Assembly (NCBI GenBank): GCA_903870685.1
Contig: CAIQDX010000102.1
Span: 1 to 64,000 of the forward strand
Length of the DNA: 64,000 nt
DNA from: an uncultured Chitinophagaceae bacterium
GTDB lineage: Bacteria; Bacteroidota; Bacteroidia; Chitinophagales; Chitinophagaceae
Direction: 5' to 3'
Shown: positions 50,154 to 62,045 of the stretch, in pieces
Position numbering within the stretch: the first letter of the stretch is position 1
Layout of the letters: each line of letters starts with the position of its first letter
Translations under genes and position numbers: made by a program
The notes under the pieces: model-generated
What the model was told of the DNA's origin: nothing
What the model saw: the letters and a program-made list of their open reading frames with translations, nothing else
The model's database searches: none

Positions 50154-51251
50154 ATGATCGGTCATCGTTTCATACAATTTAATCCGAACGAAAACAACAA
50201 ACCAAAATTTGAGCAAATGCTCGACATTTTTATGCAGTTGCTTACCTACACCAATGGCGATGCAAAAGAAGCATTGAGTTGGATGAATGAATTAGACAAA
50301 CAATATAATATCAGCAACGATGAATATGGCATGGGCGATTTTATTGATGATCTGAAGAACAATGGTTATATGAAAGAAAATCCTGTTGATGGTAGTTTTA
50401 AAATAACAGGAAAGAGTGAACAAACCATTCGCAAAAAAAGTCTGGAAGAAATATTCGGTAAACTAAAGAAAACAAAATCCGGAAATCATCAAACATTTAA
50501 GCCAGGACAGGGTGATGAAATAAATCCTGAAACACGTCCATTTCAGTTTGGTGATATGTTAGAACAAATTGATTTTACAGAAAGTATTCGCAATTCACAG
50601 ATCAATCACGGCATTGAAAGTTTTTCGATGCATGAAGATGATCTTCAAATAAGAGAAACAGATTTTAAATCACAAACATCAACTGTTTTAATGATCGATA
50701 TTTCGCACTCAATGATCTTATATGGTGAGGATAGAATCACTCCTGCAAAAAAAGTAGCGATGGCATTGAGCGAATTAATTCAAACAAAATATCCGAAAGA
50801 CACTTTGGATATTGTTGTGTTTGGCAATGATGCATGGACTGTTGAAGTAAAGGACCTGCCTTATTTACAAGTTGGTCCATATCACACAAATACAGTTGCA
50901 GGATTAGAATTGGCAATGGATATTTTGCACAAAAGAAAAAATTCGAACAAACAAATTTTTATGATCACCGACGGCAAACCAACTTGTTTAAAAGTTGGCA
51001 AACGTTATTATAAAAACAGTTTTGGTATCGACAGAAAGATCATGAATCGTTGTATTAATCTGGCAGCACAATGCAAGAAATTAAAAATACCAATCACCAC
51101 TTTTATGATCGCTTCGGATCCTTACCTGCAAAAGTTTGTACAGGAATTTACCGAGATGAATCAAGGCAAAGCATTCTTCGCATCATTAGATAAATTGGGT
51201 GCATTTATCTTTAAAGATTTTGAAAGTGGAAAACGTAAGACTGTATATTAA
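50154..51251 (+). CDS. VWA-domain protein (chelatase/MoxR-partner type)
   Basis: A 365-residue cytoplasmic protein. The first 160 residues are helical and charged. The VWA domain follows with a complete MIDAS: D182-x-S184-x-S186 in IDISHSM, T247 in YHTNTVAG and D273 in MITDGKPT. Its partner is the AAA+ ATPase at 51826-53370; such pairs act as metal-dependent chaperones or insertases (compare ChlD-ChlI, CbbO-CbbQ, RavA-ViaA). The client is unknown. A GxxExxY cassette separates the two. Confidence 0.88.
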   Translation: MIGHRFIQFNPNENNKPKFEQMLDIFMQLLTYTNGDAKEALSWMNELDKQYNISNDEYGMGDFIDDLKNNGYMKENPVDGSFKITGKSEQTIRKKSLEEIFGKLKKTKSGNHQTFKPGQGDEINPETRPFQFGDMLEQIDFTESIRNSQINHGIESFSMHEDDLQIRETDFKSQTSTVLMIDISHSMILYGEDRITPAKKVAMALSELIQTKYPKDTLDIVVFGNDAWTVEVKDLPYLQVGPYHTNTVAGLELAMDILHKRKNSNKQIFMITDGKPTCLKVGKRYYKNSFGIDRKIMNRCINLAAQCKKLKIPITTFMIASDPYLQKFVQEFTEMNQGKAFFASLDKLGAFIFKDFESGKRKTVY

Positions 51252-51313
51252 AAGCAGAAATTTGCCACGAAGGCTCTAAGACACAAAGTTTTTTTTACAA
51301 AAAAAATGAAGAA

Positions 51314-51706
51314 ATGTCACAAATGCTTTTATCAGATTATGAGGAATATTTAGGTAAAGAAATTGTTGATTGTGCTTTTAAAGTTCACAAACAACTTGGC
51401 GGTGGATTGTTGGAGAAAATTTATGAAGCATGTTTCTGTTATGAGTTAGAAAAGAAAGGAATAAAATATAAACGTCAAGCATCTTTGCCAATTGTTTATG
51501 ATGATAAAGTGTTTGATGAGGGATTAATAATTGATGTTTTAGTTGATGATTTAGTTGTTTGCGAATTTAAAGCTGTTGATAAAATCAATGATATTTGGAA
51601 AGCTCAGATAATAAGCCATCTCAAACTTTCTGGTTTACGTTTAGGATATCTTATAAATTTTAATGTGCCATTGATTAAAGACGGTATTAAAAGATTTGTA
51701 GTTTAA
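51314..51706 (+). CDS. GxxExxY protein, PD-(D/E)xK nuclease fold
   Basis: A 130-residue protein named for its motif, here G31-L-L-E34-K-I-Y37. The nuclease-like core follows: D74 in LIIDVLVDD and E84-x-K86 in VVCEFKAVDK, then a helix with Q98 (KAQIISHLKLSG). This is the PDDEXK_3 family, widespread in Bacteroidota and of unknown function; the residues for a metal-dependent nuclease are intact. It is enclosed by inverted repeats. ATG at 51314 follows a long T run; no typical ribosome site is seen. Confidence 0.85.
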   Translation: MSQMLLSDYEEYLGKEIVDCAFKVHKQLGGGLLEKIYEACFCYELEKKGIKYKRQASLPIVYDDKVFDEGLIIDVLVDDLVVCEFKAVDKINDIWKAQIISHLKLSGLRLGYLINFNVPLIKDGIKRFVV

Positions 51707-51746
51707 TCATGTTCAGTAAAGTTGAACCACAATAACAAAAGGTTTA

Positions 51747-51765
51747 GGAAAAACTTCGTTTTTCC
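51747..51765 (+). terminator. Hairpin at the end of the GxxExxY cassette
   Basis: GGAAAAAC-TTC-GTTTTTCC, an 8-bp stem with 3-nt loop, between the gene stop and the right inverted end. The 30.0 kb relative has a comparable TTC-loop hairpin. Confidence 0.55.
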
Positions 51766-51825
51766 TTCTTTGTGACTTACTGTCTTCGTGGCAAAAAAAA
51801 TATATTGAAGTCTAAAAAAATAATT

Positions 51826-53370
51826 ATGAATATTCAGAAGATCAAAACTTTAGGCGAATTAAAAAAGAGTGGTTATAAACCAAGATCGATCAAAGAAGAA
51901 ATTAGAAATAATTTGATTGAGAAAATTAAAAATAAAGAAAATGCTTTCACAGGAATTTTAGGTTATGAAGATTCTGTTATTCCTGATACAGAAAGAGCAT
52001 TATTATCCCGTCACAATATTTTGTTTTTGGGATTACGCGGTCAGGCGAAAACCAGAATGGCAAGACAAATGGTTGATCTGTTGGATGAATATATTCCTGT
52101 TGTTGCAGGCAGCGAAGTGAATGATGATCCGTTACAACCATTAAGTAAATATGCAAAAGATATTATTGCAGAATATGGTGATGATACACCCATTCAATGG
52201 ATTCACAGAAGCGAACGATATGGCGAAAAGCTTGCTACGCCTGATGTTAGCGTTGCCGATTTGATTGGTGATATTGATCCGATAAAAGCTGCTAATTTAA
52301 AATTAAGTTTTGCTGATGAAAGAGTAATTCACTACGGTATCATTCCAAGAAGTAATCGTGGCATTTTTGTAATTAATGAATTGCCCGATCTGCAGGCAAG
52401 AATTCAGGTTGCATTGTTTAATATTTTACAGGAAGGCGATATTCAAATTCGCGGATTTAAATTAAGAATGCCATTAGATATTTTATTTGTGTTTACTGCA
52501 AATCCCGAAGATTATACCAATCGCGGAAGTATTGTAACTCCGTTAAAAGATAGAATTGAATCGCAGATATTAACGCACTATCCAAAAACAATTGAAACAT
52601 CTTTAGCAATTACAGAACAAGAATCGCATATCCTCGAAGAACAAAAACAAAGAGTAACTGTGAGTGATATTATTAAAAGATTGATAGAACAAATTGCATT
52701 TGAAGCAAGAAGTAATGAATACGTTGATAAAAAAAGTGGAGTGAGTGCAAGGCTTACCATTGCTGCATTTGAGAATGCCATGAGCAGTGCAGAACGCAGA
52801 GCAATCATTCATGATGAAAAGCATACACAGGTTTGGATAAGTGATTTAGTTGGTGTTATTCCATCTATTACCGGAAAGATAGAATTGGTATATGAAGGTG
52901 AACAGGAAGGACCATATCAAGTGGCGGTTAATTTATTGGATAAATCTATCCGCACACAATTCATTCAATATTTTCCCAATCCGGAACAAACAAAAAAAAG
53001 AAGAAGCACCGGAAAAAGATCTGTTGAGGAAAAAGAAATTGAGAATCCATATAAATCAATCACACGTTGGTTTGATGCAGGAAATCATTTAGATATTTTT
53101 GTTGAGATAAAAGATGCTGATAAGATCTCAGCATTATATCAGGTTGATGGATTACATGCTTTTGTAAAAAAATATTTTAATAAAGCCAATGAAAACGAAA
53201 CTGCATTGCTGATGGAATTTGTTTTACACGGATTGGCTTCTTATTCCTTAATCAGTAAAAAAGTAATTGAAGGAAGAATAGAATTCAAAGACTTGATGGG
53301 CAGCATGATGAATTTAGGCAATATTAGTCTTGGTGAAGATGATGATTTGAATGATGATGATTTCAGATAA
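51826..53370 (+). CDS. MoxR/BchI-type AAA+ ATPase
   Basis: A 514-residue ATPase related to magnesium-chelatase subunit I. Walker A is GLRGQAKT (69-76). The Walker B strand reads IFVINELPD (180-188), with Asn-Glu in place of the usual Asp-Glu. Sensor 1 is FVFTANPEDY, and the arginine-finger region is near TPLKDRIES. An extra C-terminal helical region (about 330-514) ends in an acidic tail. It should drive remodelling with the VWA protein upstream. The frame extends to 51772, but that part is inside the inverted repeat; MNIQKIKTLG is the likely start. Confidence 0.88.
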   Translation: MNIQKIKTLGELKKSGYKPRSIKEEIRNNLIEKIKNKENAFTGILGYEDSVIPDTERALLSRHNILFLGLRGQAKTRMARQMVDLLDEYIPVVAGSEVNDDPLQPLSKYAKDIIAEYGDDTPIQWIHRSERYGEKLATPDVSVADLIGDIDPIKAANLKLSFADERVIHYGIIPRSNRGIFVINELPDLQARIQVALFNILQEGDIQIRGFKLRMPLDILFVFTANPEDYTNRGSIVTPLKDRIESQILTHYPKTIETSLAITEQESHILEEQKQRVTVSDIIKRLIEQIAFEARSNEYVDKKSGVSARLTIAAFENAMSSAERRAIIHDEKHTQVWISDLVGVIPSITGKIELVYEGEQEGPYQVAVNLLDKSIRTQFIQYFPNPEQTKKRRSTGKRSVEEKEIENPYKSITRWFDAGNHLDIFVEIKDADKISALYQVDGLHAFVKKYFNKANENETALLMEFVLHGLASYSLISKKVIEGRIEFKDLMGSMMNLGNISLGEDDDLNDDDFR

Positions 53371-56097: not shown

Positions 56098-56132
56098 AAA
56101 TAAATCCCGATGTAATTTATCGGGATTTATTT
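56098..56132. terminator. Bidirectional terminator, overlapping a CDS end
   Basis: A 14-bp stem AAATAAATCCCGAT with ATCGGGATTTATTT, 7-nt loop, T runs on both sides. It ends the M20 gene; on the minus strand part of it encodes the last residues (KSR) and stop of the next gene. Confidence 0.88.
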
Positions 56133-56566
56133 TTTTCATTTGCATCTTCCAAAATCCAAATCTCTCCTCGTTTAAAAATAAAATATAAAATCGTGTATGC
56201 GGTAAAAGCCAATGCAAGTATAAGTTGTACAGGTGCTAGCCATTCAGGCTTTAACCCTTTCGTTAGTCTAAAAAATAGTGGTCCCGCAAGTAAAGAAATC
56301 AAAAAAGTAGAGTACAAAATAGTATAATACTTCATTCCATTATTAATCTCTAAATAAACTTCTTTACCATCTTCGACTTTTACAATTAATGTTTGTGTTT
56401 TTAACCATTTCATTTTCACCTGAACTGCATATATACCCGCATCTTCCAAAACAAATGTTTTTGAATTAGCCATTAGAGCAACTTCTTTTCCGTCAAAGAA
56501 AACAGTAAAAGTTGCGTTTCGGAAAAAGAAATTATTTTTTTTGTTGATGATAATTTTTGCACTCAT
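56117..56566 (-). CDS. Small membrane protein, tandem paralog A
   Basis: A 149-residue protein: an N-terminal soluble beta domain (about 1-75: AKIIINKKN, FTVFFDGKEV, AGIYAVQVKMKWLKTQTL) followed by two transmembrane helices (about 83-102 and 112-131). It is clearly related to the neighbour at 56653-57102 in layout and in AKIIIN, DGKE/DDKE and NGMKY positions. The beta domain looks like a PEGA-like or immunoglobulin-like module. Function unknown. Its last codons lie in the terminator. Confidence 0.75.
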   Translation of the reverse strand: MSAKIIINKKNNFFFRNATFTVFFDGKEVALMANSKTFVLEDAGIYAVQVKMKWLKTQTLIVKVEDGKEVYLEINNGMKYYTILYSTFLISLLAGPLFFRLTKGLKPEWLAPVQLILALAFTAYTILYFIFKRGEIWILEDANEKNKSR

Positions 56567-56617
56567 AAAATTAAAACTATGATTATATGTTGATTGGTTA
56601 ATTGAAATTTGATTAAT

Positions 56618-56650
56618 AATAAATCCCGATGAATTTCATCGGGATTTATT
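56618..56650 (-). terminator. Terminator of paralog B
   Basis: AATAAATCCCGATG pairs with CATCGGGATTTATT, 5-nt loop. It is nearly the same sequence as the terminator of paralog A, as if copied with the gene. Confidence 0.85.
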
Positions 56651-56652
56651 TA

Positions 56653-61977: not shown

Positions 61978-61983
61978 GTTACT

Positions 61984-62038
61984 GAGTTATGAGTTATGAG
62001 TTATAAGTTATAAATCATTCTTCCTTTATAACTTATAA
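61984..62038. repeat. 7-bp tandem repeat and AT hairpin between pyrB and coaD
   Basis: Three copies of GAGTTAT and one AAGTTAT (61984-62011). The end overlaps a 14-bp hairpin TTATAAGTTATAAA / TTTATAACTTATAA (62001-62038). It may act as a weak processing or termination signal after pyrB. Confidence 0.75.
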
Positions 62039-62045
62039 TTCAAAA

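Follow-up and report, generated by a model that had tools for sequence, protein, structure and literature searches.

Inverted arrays of 8-nt units border a GxxExxY gene of the PD-(D/E)xK family in a Chitinophagaceae genome and recur at related loci

Introduction

REPs are found as singles and pairs, and MITEs of Bacteroidetes are reportedly treated in published work. In the REPtron, tnpA_REP (RAYT) is bordered by REPs that are also dispersed genome-wide, and the part of the literature used here describes the gene as mostly single-copy (PMC8266576). The 23S rRNA IVS of Coxiella has a 28-bp terminal stem which is cut by RNase III, according to the portion of PMC4990558 consulted. Direct repeats of the heptamer TAACTGA occur in Beggiatoaceae, Cyanobacteria and Bacteroidetes, and in one genome they lie mostly just upstream of start codons, as stated in the section of PMC4679880 used here.

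Here we describe a 535-bp unit, measured arm to arm, from an uncultured Chitinophagaceae bacterium, in which a GxxExxY gene stands between two inverted unit arrays, the arms. Like the REPtron, it combines a small nuclease-family gene with cognate repeats on both sides, and the repeats that border the gene are dispersed in genomes as well. However, the enzyme is of the PD-(D/E)xK and not the HUH Y1 type (only PF13366 and TIGR04256 are matched in the element), the arms are built from serial 8-nt units that contain free positions, in place of a tagged palindrome, and the PF13366 family reaches several copies per genome (up to 15), unlike tnpA_REP as characterized in the part of the source cited. 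With the 23S rRNA IVS encoding S23p (PF05635) the unit shares inverted terminal arms around one small ORF. In contrast to the IVS, it is located between two protein genes, for a VWA-domain protein and a MoxR-type ATPase, with no Rfam match at the gathering score in the analysed DNA, its cargo is a putative nuclease and its arms carry mismatches at fixed positions. MITEs and short insertion sequences are likewise short and intergenic, with terminal inverted repeats and both empty and filled sites, but the present unit gives no transposase profile match and no recognised target-site duplication, and its arms consist of repeated units whose type goes with the cargo. The TAACTGA heptamers are similar as short intergenic units of scattered phylogenetic spread, yet they are direct repeats, and the text considered describes none that are inverted around a cargo gene. 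In the open-licence PubMed Central literature the GxxExxY name was found in only two papers, with mentions that do not concern function in the excerpts retrieved; the arm sequences gave one unrelated match there and no text describing these ends.

Results

The GxxExxY unit and its neighbours

The window, i.e. the whole 64,000-nt stretch of DNA analysed here, is part of a 3.18-Mb genome (G000). The GxxExxY gene (51314-51706, plus strand) encodes 130 amino acids including the catalytic-type residues E34, D74, E84 and K86. It is preceded by the left arm (51261-51288, plus strand), the 8-nt unit array GCCACGAAG GCTCTAAG ACACAAAG reading toward the gene, and followed by the right arm (51768-51795, minus strand), the inverse array, which reads GCCACGAAG ACAGTAAG TCACAAAG toward the gene. 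The units have the form CACnAAGn. Comparison of the left arm, TTTGCCACGAAGGCTCTAAGACACAAAG, with the reverse complement of 51768-51795 gives 28 nt with 86% complementarity at a spacing of 479 nt, and the inverted pair of the original prediction (23 of 27 positions) was thereby right to within a base. The short arm motif CCACNAAGNCNNNAAGNCNC, with at most one mismatch allowed, has two matches in the 64-kb window, both of them the arms, compared to 0.02 expected from shuffles.

ORFs and profile matches bear out the proposed location between a VWA and a MoxR-type gene. The upstream host gene codes for the VWA-domain protein (50154-51251, plus strand) and its stop codon lies 9 nt from the left arm. 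The downstream host gene codes for a MoxR/ChlI-like AAA+ ATPase (51826-53370, plus strand); its ATG, chosen at 51826 where the ORF list opens the frame at GTG 51772, is found 30 nt past the right arm. Between the GxxExxY gene and the right arm there is, as anticipated, a small perfect terminator-like hairpin (51746-51766, plus strand; one found versus 0.1 expected), followed by the bases TCTTTGTGAC, a weak T tail. The congener G003 shows a similar hairpin at the same place.

The protein encoded in the window matches TIGR04256 with 136.3 bits (cut-off 35) and PF13366 with 131.5 bits (cut-off 22). PF13366 is named for PD-(D/E)xK, and the D...ExK residues that mark membership of this superfamily are present. 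Across 40 aligned sequences the GxxExxY motif (G31, E34, Y37) is invariant; D74, K86 and Q98 are also among the invariant residues and E84 is kept in at least 90%, in line with the intact catalytic core that had been claimed. When PDB entries were re-aligned to a structure model (pLDDT 95.4), the Cas4-like 4ic1 (Z 9.2) and BamHI (Z 8.0) scored best, while Foldseek against the PDB gave no match at E ≤ 0.001, with lambda exonuclease coming closest (0.0046). A sequence search of solved structures returned only weak matches, to unrelated enzymes. Overall, there is moderate support for the predicted PD-(D/E)xK fold. Within the window's family, PF13366 is matched in 76 of the 117 genomes sampled, with up to 15 matches per genome. 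Eight relatives are found on plasmids, and tblastn at 1e-5 detected none in phage records.

Inverted unit arrays recur at related loci

We then compared the flanks of the best 80 of 352 GxxExxY loci, which form one clade as a result of this choice and include a few genomes twice. Judged by record titles, their hosts are Bacteroidota, Ignavibacteria, Planctomycetota, Acidobacteria, Scalindua and Celaenobacter, mostly as metagenome bins. Inward-facing arms are found on both sides in 64 of the 80 loci, on one or both sides in 78 and on neither side in 2, and in one of these two (L024) arms are visible at a slightly different spacing. On each side, 71 of the 80 flanks reach an arm score of at least 13/17, against a background of 0.017 per 250 nt in other parts of these loci, and the left flank aligns to the reverse-complemented right flank with a score of at least 18 in 66 loci. 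The consensus arm across this best-80 set is GCCACnAAGnCaCnAAGnCaCnAAG, often with another CACnAAG about 3 bases on; in the 55 loci that fit a stricter pattern the core letters are conserved and the n positions free. An 8-nt period is also seen in 3-mer repeats at lag 8, which are 3.6-fold more frequent in the first 130 nt of the flank than at 670-800 nt. The window's family also provided 29 GxxExxY loci at greater distance; 22 of these beat all 100 shuffles, with unit types different from CACnAAG.

The expectation that inverted ends would recur at unrelated loci is thus confirmed, with hosts of several phyla by record title. The original prediction had named two observations that would speak against it, namely the gene at the same place without repeats and repeats placed at random relative to the gene. 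Neither was made, and the five GxxExxY copies at a VWA-MoxR junction (window, L015, L107, L112 and L027) are all armed.

The unit type follows the protein clade

Three unit types, CAC-AAG, CGG-AAG and CAC-AAA, account for 76 labelled rows of the 80 (4 unlabelled), and on the protein tree they require 2 changes, the minimum possible. A wider set of 111 combines the 80 loci with the 29 more distant ones and with two sibling GxxExxY loci of the window's genome, L001 and L003. Here 8 unit types, labelled by simple regular expressions in 94 rows (17 unlabelled), require 14 changes compared to a shuffled mean of 35 and a lowest shuffled value of 31; both protein trees are quick trees with many open forks. 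Arm k-mer similarity correlates with protein identity (r = 0.57, 104 of 111 loci; permutations ≤ 0.24), whereas control flanks 600-800 nt away do not (r = 0.02, 98 loci); a further control with the arms "read outward" is uninformative by construction. The two arms of an element are of the same type at the first unit in 55 of 55 cases versus 44.4 in shuffles. Judging from sequence, the simplest cause of this coupling would be that the protein itself recognises its units, although co-inheritance alone could also generate it.

Filled, empty and refilled gaps

Related sites in congeners differ in what they contain. At the L001 site G000 and G003 carry GxxExxY with ACAGAT-type arms, G004 carries an S23 gene (PF05635 match) with other arms, as identified by eye, and G002 two other ORFs, while the site is empty in two contigs of G001 (bin contamination 4%). 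The L003 site holds GxxExxY in G000, is empty in G004 and contains, by eye, a short gene-less remnant with the same arm in G002 and G003 and an aminotransferase-like gene (label by reading) in G001. No target-site duplication was recognised by eye between filled and empty sites at L001 and L003, the flanks of which have diverged.

Of the five congeners, only G000 and G003 have GxxExxY at the VWA-MoxR gap; in G001, G002 and G004 the gap carries another hairpin. A survey by eye and script covered 33 loci, 5 of them from the genus and 28 chosen by best score from the others among 103 matching family genomes. It found GxxExxY in 4 (one broken), gene-less hairpins in 7 (L110 being cut by the contig end), a short or no insert in 13, and toxin-antitoxin-like or other small genes in 4; one gap is unclear, and in 4 loci the VWA gene is non-adjacent or was not found. 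A further GxxExxY case at this gap, L027, has CGG arms. The VWA-MoxR gap is an insertion hot spot, and the toxin-antitoxin-like genes present in other genera indicate that it serves as a general landing site. An empty junction had been predicted to match the outside sequence exactly. Short insert-free VWA-MoxR gaps in other genera and empty sibling sites in congeners agree with this, but the exact match was not obtained at the window site, where the gap of G001, G002 and G004 is occupied by the other hairpin.

Individual gaps show additional arrangements. Toxin-antitoxin-like small genes (names by reading) were seen in L100, L103, L111 and L116, all in other genera. In L107, from another genus, three tandem gene-less CAC hairpins stand beside the GxxExxY gene, and G110 of that same genus has two gene-less CAC hairpins at its VWA-MoxR gap, at a contig start (L110).

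The VWA tree groups G000 with G001 and G003 with G002 (support 93/98 and 88/89), while the MoxR tree leaves the grouping open. Between G000 and G003 synonymous divergence (pS) at the window site is 0.35 for the GxxExxY gene versus 0.63 for VWA and 0.54 for MoxR, the number of synonymous sites being approximate in the MoxR comparison. The VWA grouping together with the lower divergence of the gene suggests, though not securely, a transfer or a second insertion into one site. At the L001 site, the gene and its neighbour are alike at synonymous sites (0.62 and 0.65).

Arms away from the gene

Arms also stand alone, as gene-less hairpins and as tandem hairpins, away from the gene. A reversed control pattern gave no match in any of the 117 genomes searched. 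We fetched 40 arms from five genomes (G099, G058, G107, G031 and G008), picked mostly where one exact arm was listed. Five have an inverted partner of at least 13/17 within 900 nt and 35 lack a clear partner, a proportion that gives no estimate for genomes at large because the picked sites favour singles; in a few cases the partner is of another unit type. In G004 and G077 arm matches stand in close inverted pairs. G020 has 22 arm matches, 15 of them with a partner 9-96 nt away and some being the two arms of one hairpin, and gives no PF13366 match at E ≤ 0.001. This indicates that arms persist or spread without a resident GxxExxY gene: either they survive loss of the gene, or they are also moved by some other factor. 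The proposal that ends and cargo travel together consequently stands in part. It agrees with the arms on both sides at 64 of 80 loci and with the clade-coupled unit type; the solitary arms, the gene-less hairpins and G020 do not conform to it.

PF13366 is present in 27 of 28 arm-positive genomes versus 49 of 89 others. This association is only weakly specific, because Y1_Tnp (27/28 versus 62/89) and S23 (27/28 versus 60/89) are associated with arms too, if less strongly. The copy-number association of GxxExxY is significant (P = 2e-5), but we do not take it as proof of mobilisation by GxxExxY, because Y1_Tnp (P = 0.002) and S23 (P = 0.001) are associated as well and the genomes are not independent.

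Orientation and transcription

The GxxExxY gene is in sense with both neighbours 72 times and opposite to both twice. Near neighbours are available for 64 of the 80 loci (53 in sense, 1 opposite) and for 24 of the 29 distant loci (19 in sense, 1 opposite). The distance from the stop codon of the co-directional upstream gene to the arm has a median of 16 nt (43 loci, drawn from the 49 of 80 that have both arms and both neighbours, with 31 left out). The fetched, mostly gene-less arms show 8 versus 10 orientations relative to transcription (27 of 40 usable). Given the sense bias of the gene and its absence from the sampled arms, the direction of transcription does not seem to determine how arms insert. 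A scan restricted to sigma-70 sites gave 2 promoter-like matches around the unit compared to 3.9 in shuffles, and the sole match on the gene's strand (51220-51249) lies outside the unit. As no promoter-like match above chance lies inside the unit, the gene probably persists at sites where it is transcribed as part of a host operon.

Mismatches at fixed positions of the stem

To characterize the stem we used 73 distinct arm pairs, 40 from gene-less and 34 from gene-bearing units with one in both groups. The n positions of paired arms match in 44 of 219 cases versus 65.1 expected, and none of 2000 shuffles is that low. The deficit is clear in gene-less hairpins (20/120 versus 35.4) and weak in gene-bearing units (24/102 versus 30.2); in the 55-locus analysis these positions pair no better than chance. 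The middle base of C-x-C matches above chance in gene-bearing units (51/68 versus 41.4), with no excess in gene-less units (47/80 versus 46.5). Since n positions match less often than by chance, a perfect stem is not what is kept, and we rejected it as the conserved feature. Avoidance of unstable perfect palindromes in DNA would produce such an excess of mismatches, while selection for an RNA stem would not.

S23 genes and other repeats

Of 30 S23/IVP loci outside rRNA (L125-L154), 16 have inverted flank arms that beat all 50 shuffles; for four loci close to a contig edge (L128, L136, L143 and L149) the position was set by rule of thumb. Analyses of orientation, similarity and periodicity cover 25 of the 30. 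Their flanks show a strong 7- and 14-nt periodicity, S23 reaches up to 16 copies per genome, and 19 of 22 S23 genes with near neighbours are in sense with both versus 3 opposite. The S23 four-helix-bundle genes may be a second cargo, with arms of 7-nt units. Arm type correlates with S23 clade (r = 0.79), but we make no claim of coupling here, as the far-flank control is also high (0.62) because several S23 loci look like the same site.

Further repeats are present in the window. A gene-less hairpin at 61979-62045 consists of TAAGTTA-type 7-nt units, the unit type in the arms of several S23 genes. Six copies of the repeat TTGCGTCGCAC(A/T)CTTGTAC (7651, 7715, 18781, 21712, 58546 and 58619; at most 3 mismatches, 0.02 expected) were found, and its core also occurs in the VWA-MoxR gap of relatives. 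Inverted arms of 37 nt at 56098-56134 and 56615-56651, 92% complementary and each a palindrome, enclose a gene for 149 amino acids on the minus strand (56117-56566) and are possibly paired terminators.

Discussion

We favour, with moderate confidence, the interpretation that the GxxExxY protein is a nuclease with its own cognate end arrays, which act at the level of DNA and follow a dispersal logic like that of the REPtron with an unrelated enzyme and unrelated repeats. The 535-bp unit would then be one copy of a dispersed element class made up of a small PD-(D/E)xK nuclease gene and two inverted arrays of recognition units. The protein would bind its cognate array as DNA and cut at or near it, and repair of the break may copy the gene-bearing unit, or the arms alone, into other intergenic gaps. 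Such copying would be analogous to the service that the REPtron gene is thought to provide to REPs. The steps of cutting and copying are those we infer from comparative sequence data.

An unlikely alternative is an IVS-like RNA unit, in which the two arms form a stem in the operon transcript, this stem is cleaved by RNase III or another host enzyme, and the gene is a tolerated insert. The arms are indeed paired in the predicted RNA fold of the unit (z -2.9, 0/100 shuffles as stable), the gene lies in sense in operons, and S23, the IVS protein family, also has comparable arms on its two sides at loci outside rRNA; the Coxiella IVS, with its 28-bp terminal stem and RNase III cleavage, provides a precedent (PMC4990558). 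An RNA function is however difficult to reconcile with n positions that are mismatched more than by chance, with arms that stand alone and with sampled arms that show no orientation to transcription (8 versus 10; 27 of 40 usable).

It is also quite improbable that GxxExxY is simply a host-beneficial gene, with a role in defence or regulation, and that the arms are operators or mRNA stability signals without any element. Inverted arms on both sides of the gene, their presence far from it as hairpins, tandem hairpins and singles, and gaps that are empty or refilled between congeners argue against this, even though the protein is under purifying selection (dN/dS of 0.058 at the window site and 0.105 at the L001 site), the gene is kept in sense in operons, and toxin-antitoxin-like genes (by reading) occupy the same gap in other species.

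Arms that are REPIN/MITE-like repeats moved by a resident RAYT (Y1_Tnp), with GxxExxY as a passenger, are very unlikely. Y1_Tnp does occur in 27 of the 28 genomes with arms, among them G020, where PF13366 gives no match. However, no Y1_Tnp (PF01797) match at E ≤ 0.001 was obtained in the genome that contains the window, and the arm type follows the GxxExxY clade. We further inspected 20 Y1_Tnp loci from 11 arm-positive genomes, selected from a larger number of listed matches. CAC units do not form the best inverted flank pair at any of these loci; no CACnAAG unit lies near 15 of them and 1 to 3 lie near the other 5. At 10 of the 20, a different inverted pair exceeds all 50 shuffles. Because the best inverted pairs differ in sequence from the arms and the window's genome is without a Y1_Tnp match, a RAYT is a poor candidate here, and we rejected it as the mobiliser. 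A cognate nuclease is a better fit than either RAYT mobilisation or a perfect RNA stem.

Finally, one locus with a 28-nt arm pair could be put down to repeats that arose by chance, or to a gene with AT-rich flanks that was simply inherited vertically, but both are refuted by arms on both sides at 64 of 80 loci over a background of 0.017 per 250 nt and by the absence of the reversed control pattern from 117 genomes.

Extending the cognate-nuclease interpretation, we tentatively raise a broader and rather doubtful proposal, that GxxExxY and S23 together represent minimal mobile elements of a categorically new class. Either protein would read its own array of 7- to 9-nt units as inverted, purposely mismatched ends, cut-and-copy would take place at the DNA level with no transposase, persistence would depend on host operons, and non-autonomous arms would make up a large part of the intergenic hairpins of Bacteroidota.

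With cognate end arrays assigned to it, the orphan family PF13366 becomes one half of a protein-DNA pair that can be tested. A recognition unit is predicted for this pair, and nature offers variants of it (CAC/CGG, AAG/AAA) as well as filled and empty sites. If the cognate-nuclease interpretation is true, it would account for dispersed intergenic repeats of the CCACnAAG kind and provide a small nuclease whose sequence specificity may be readable.
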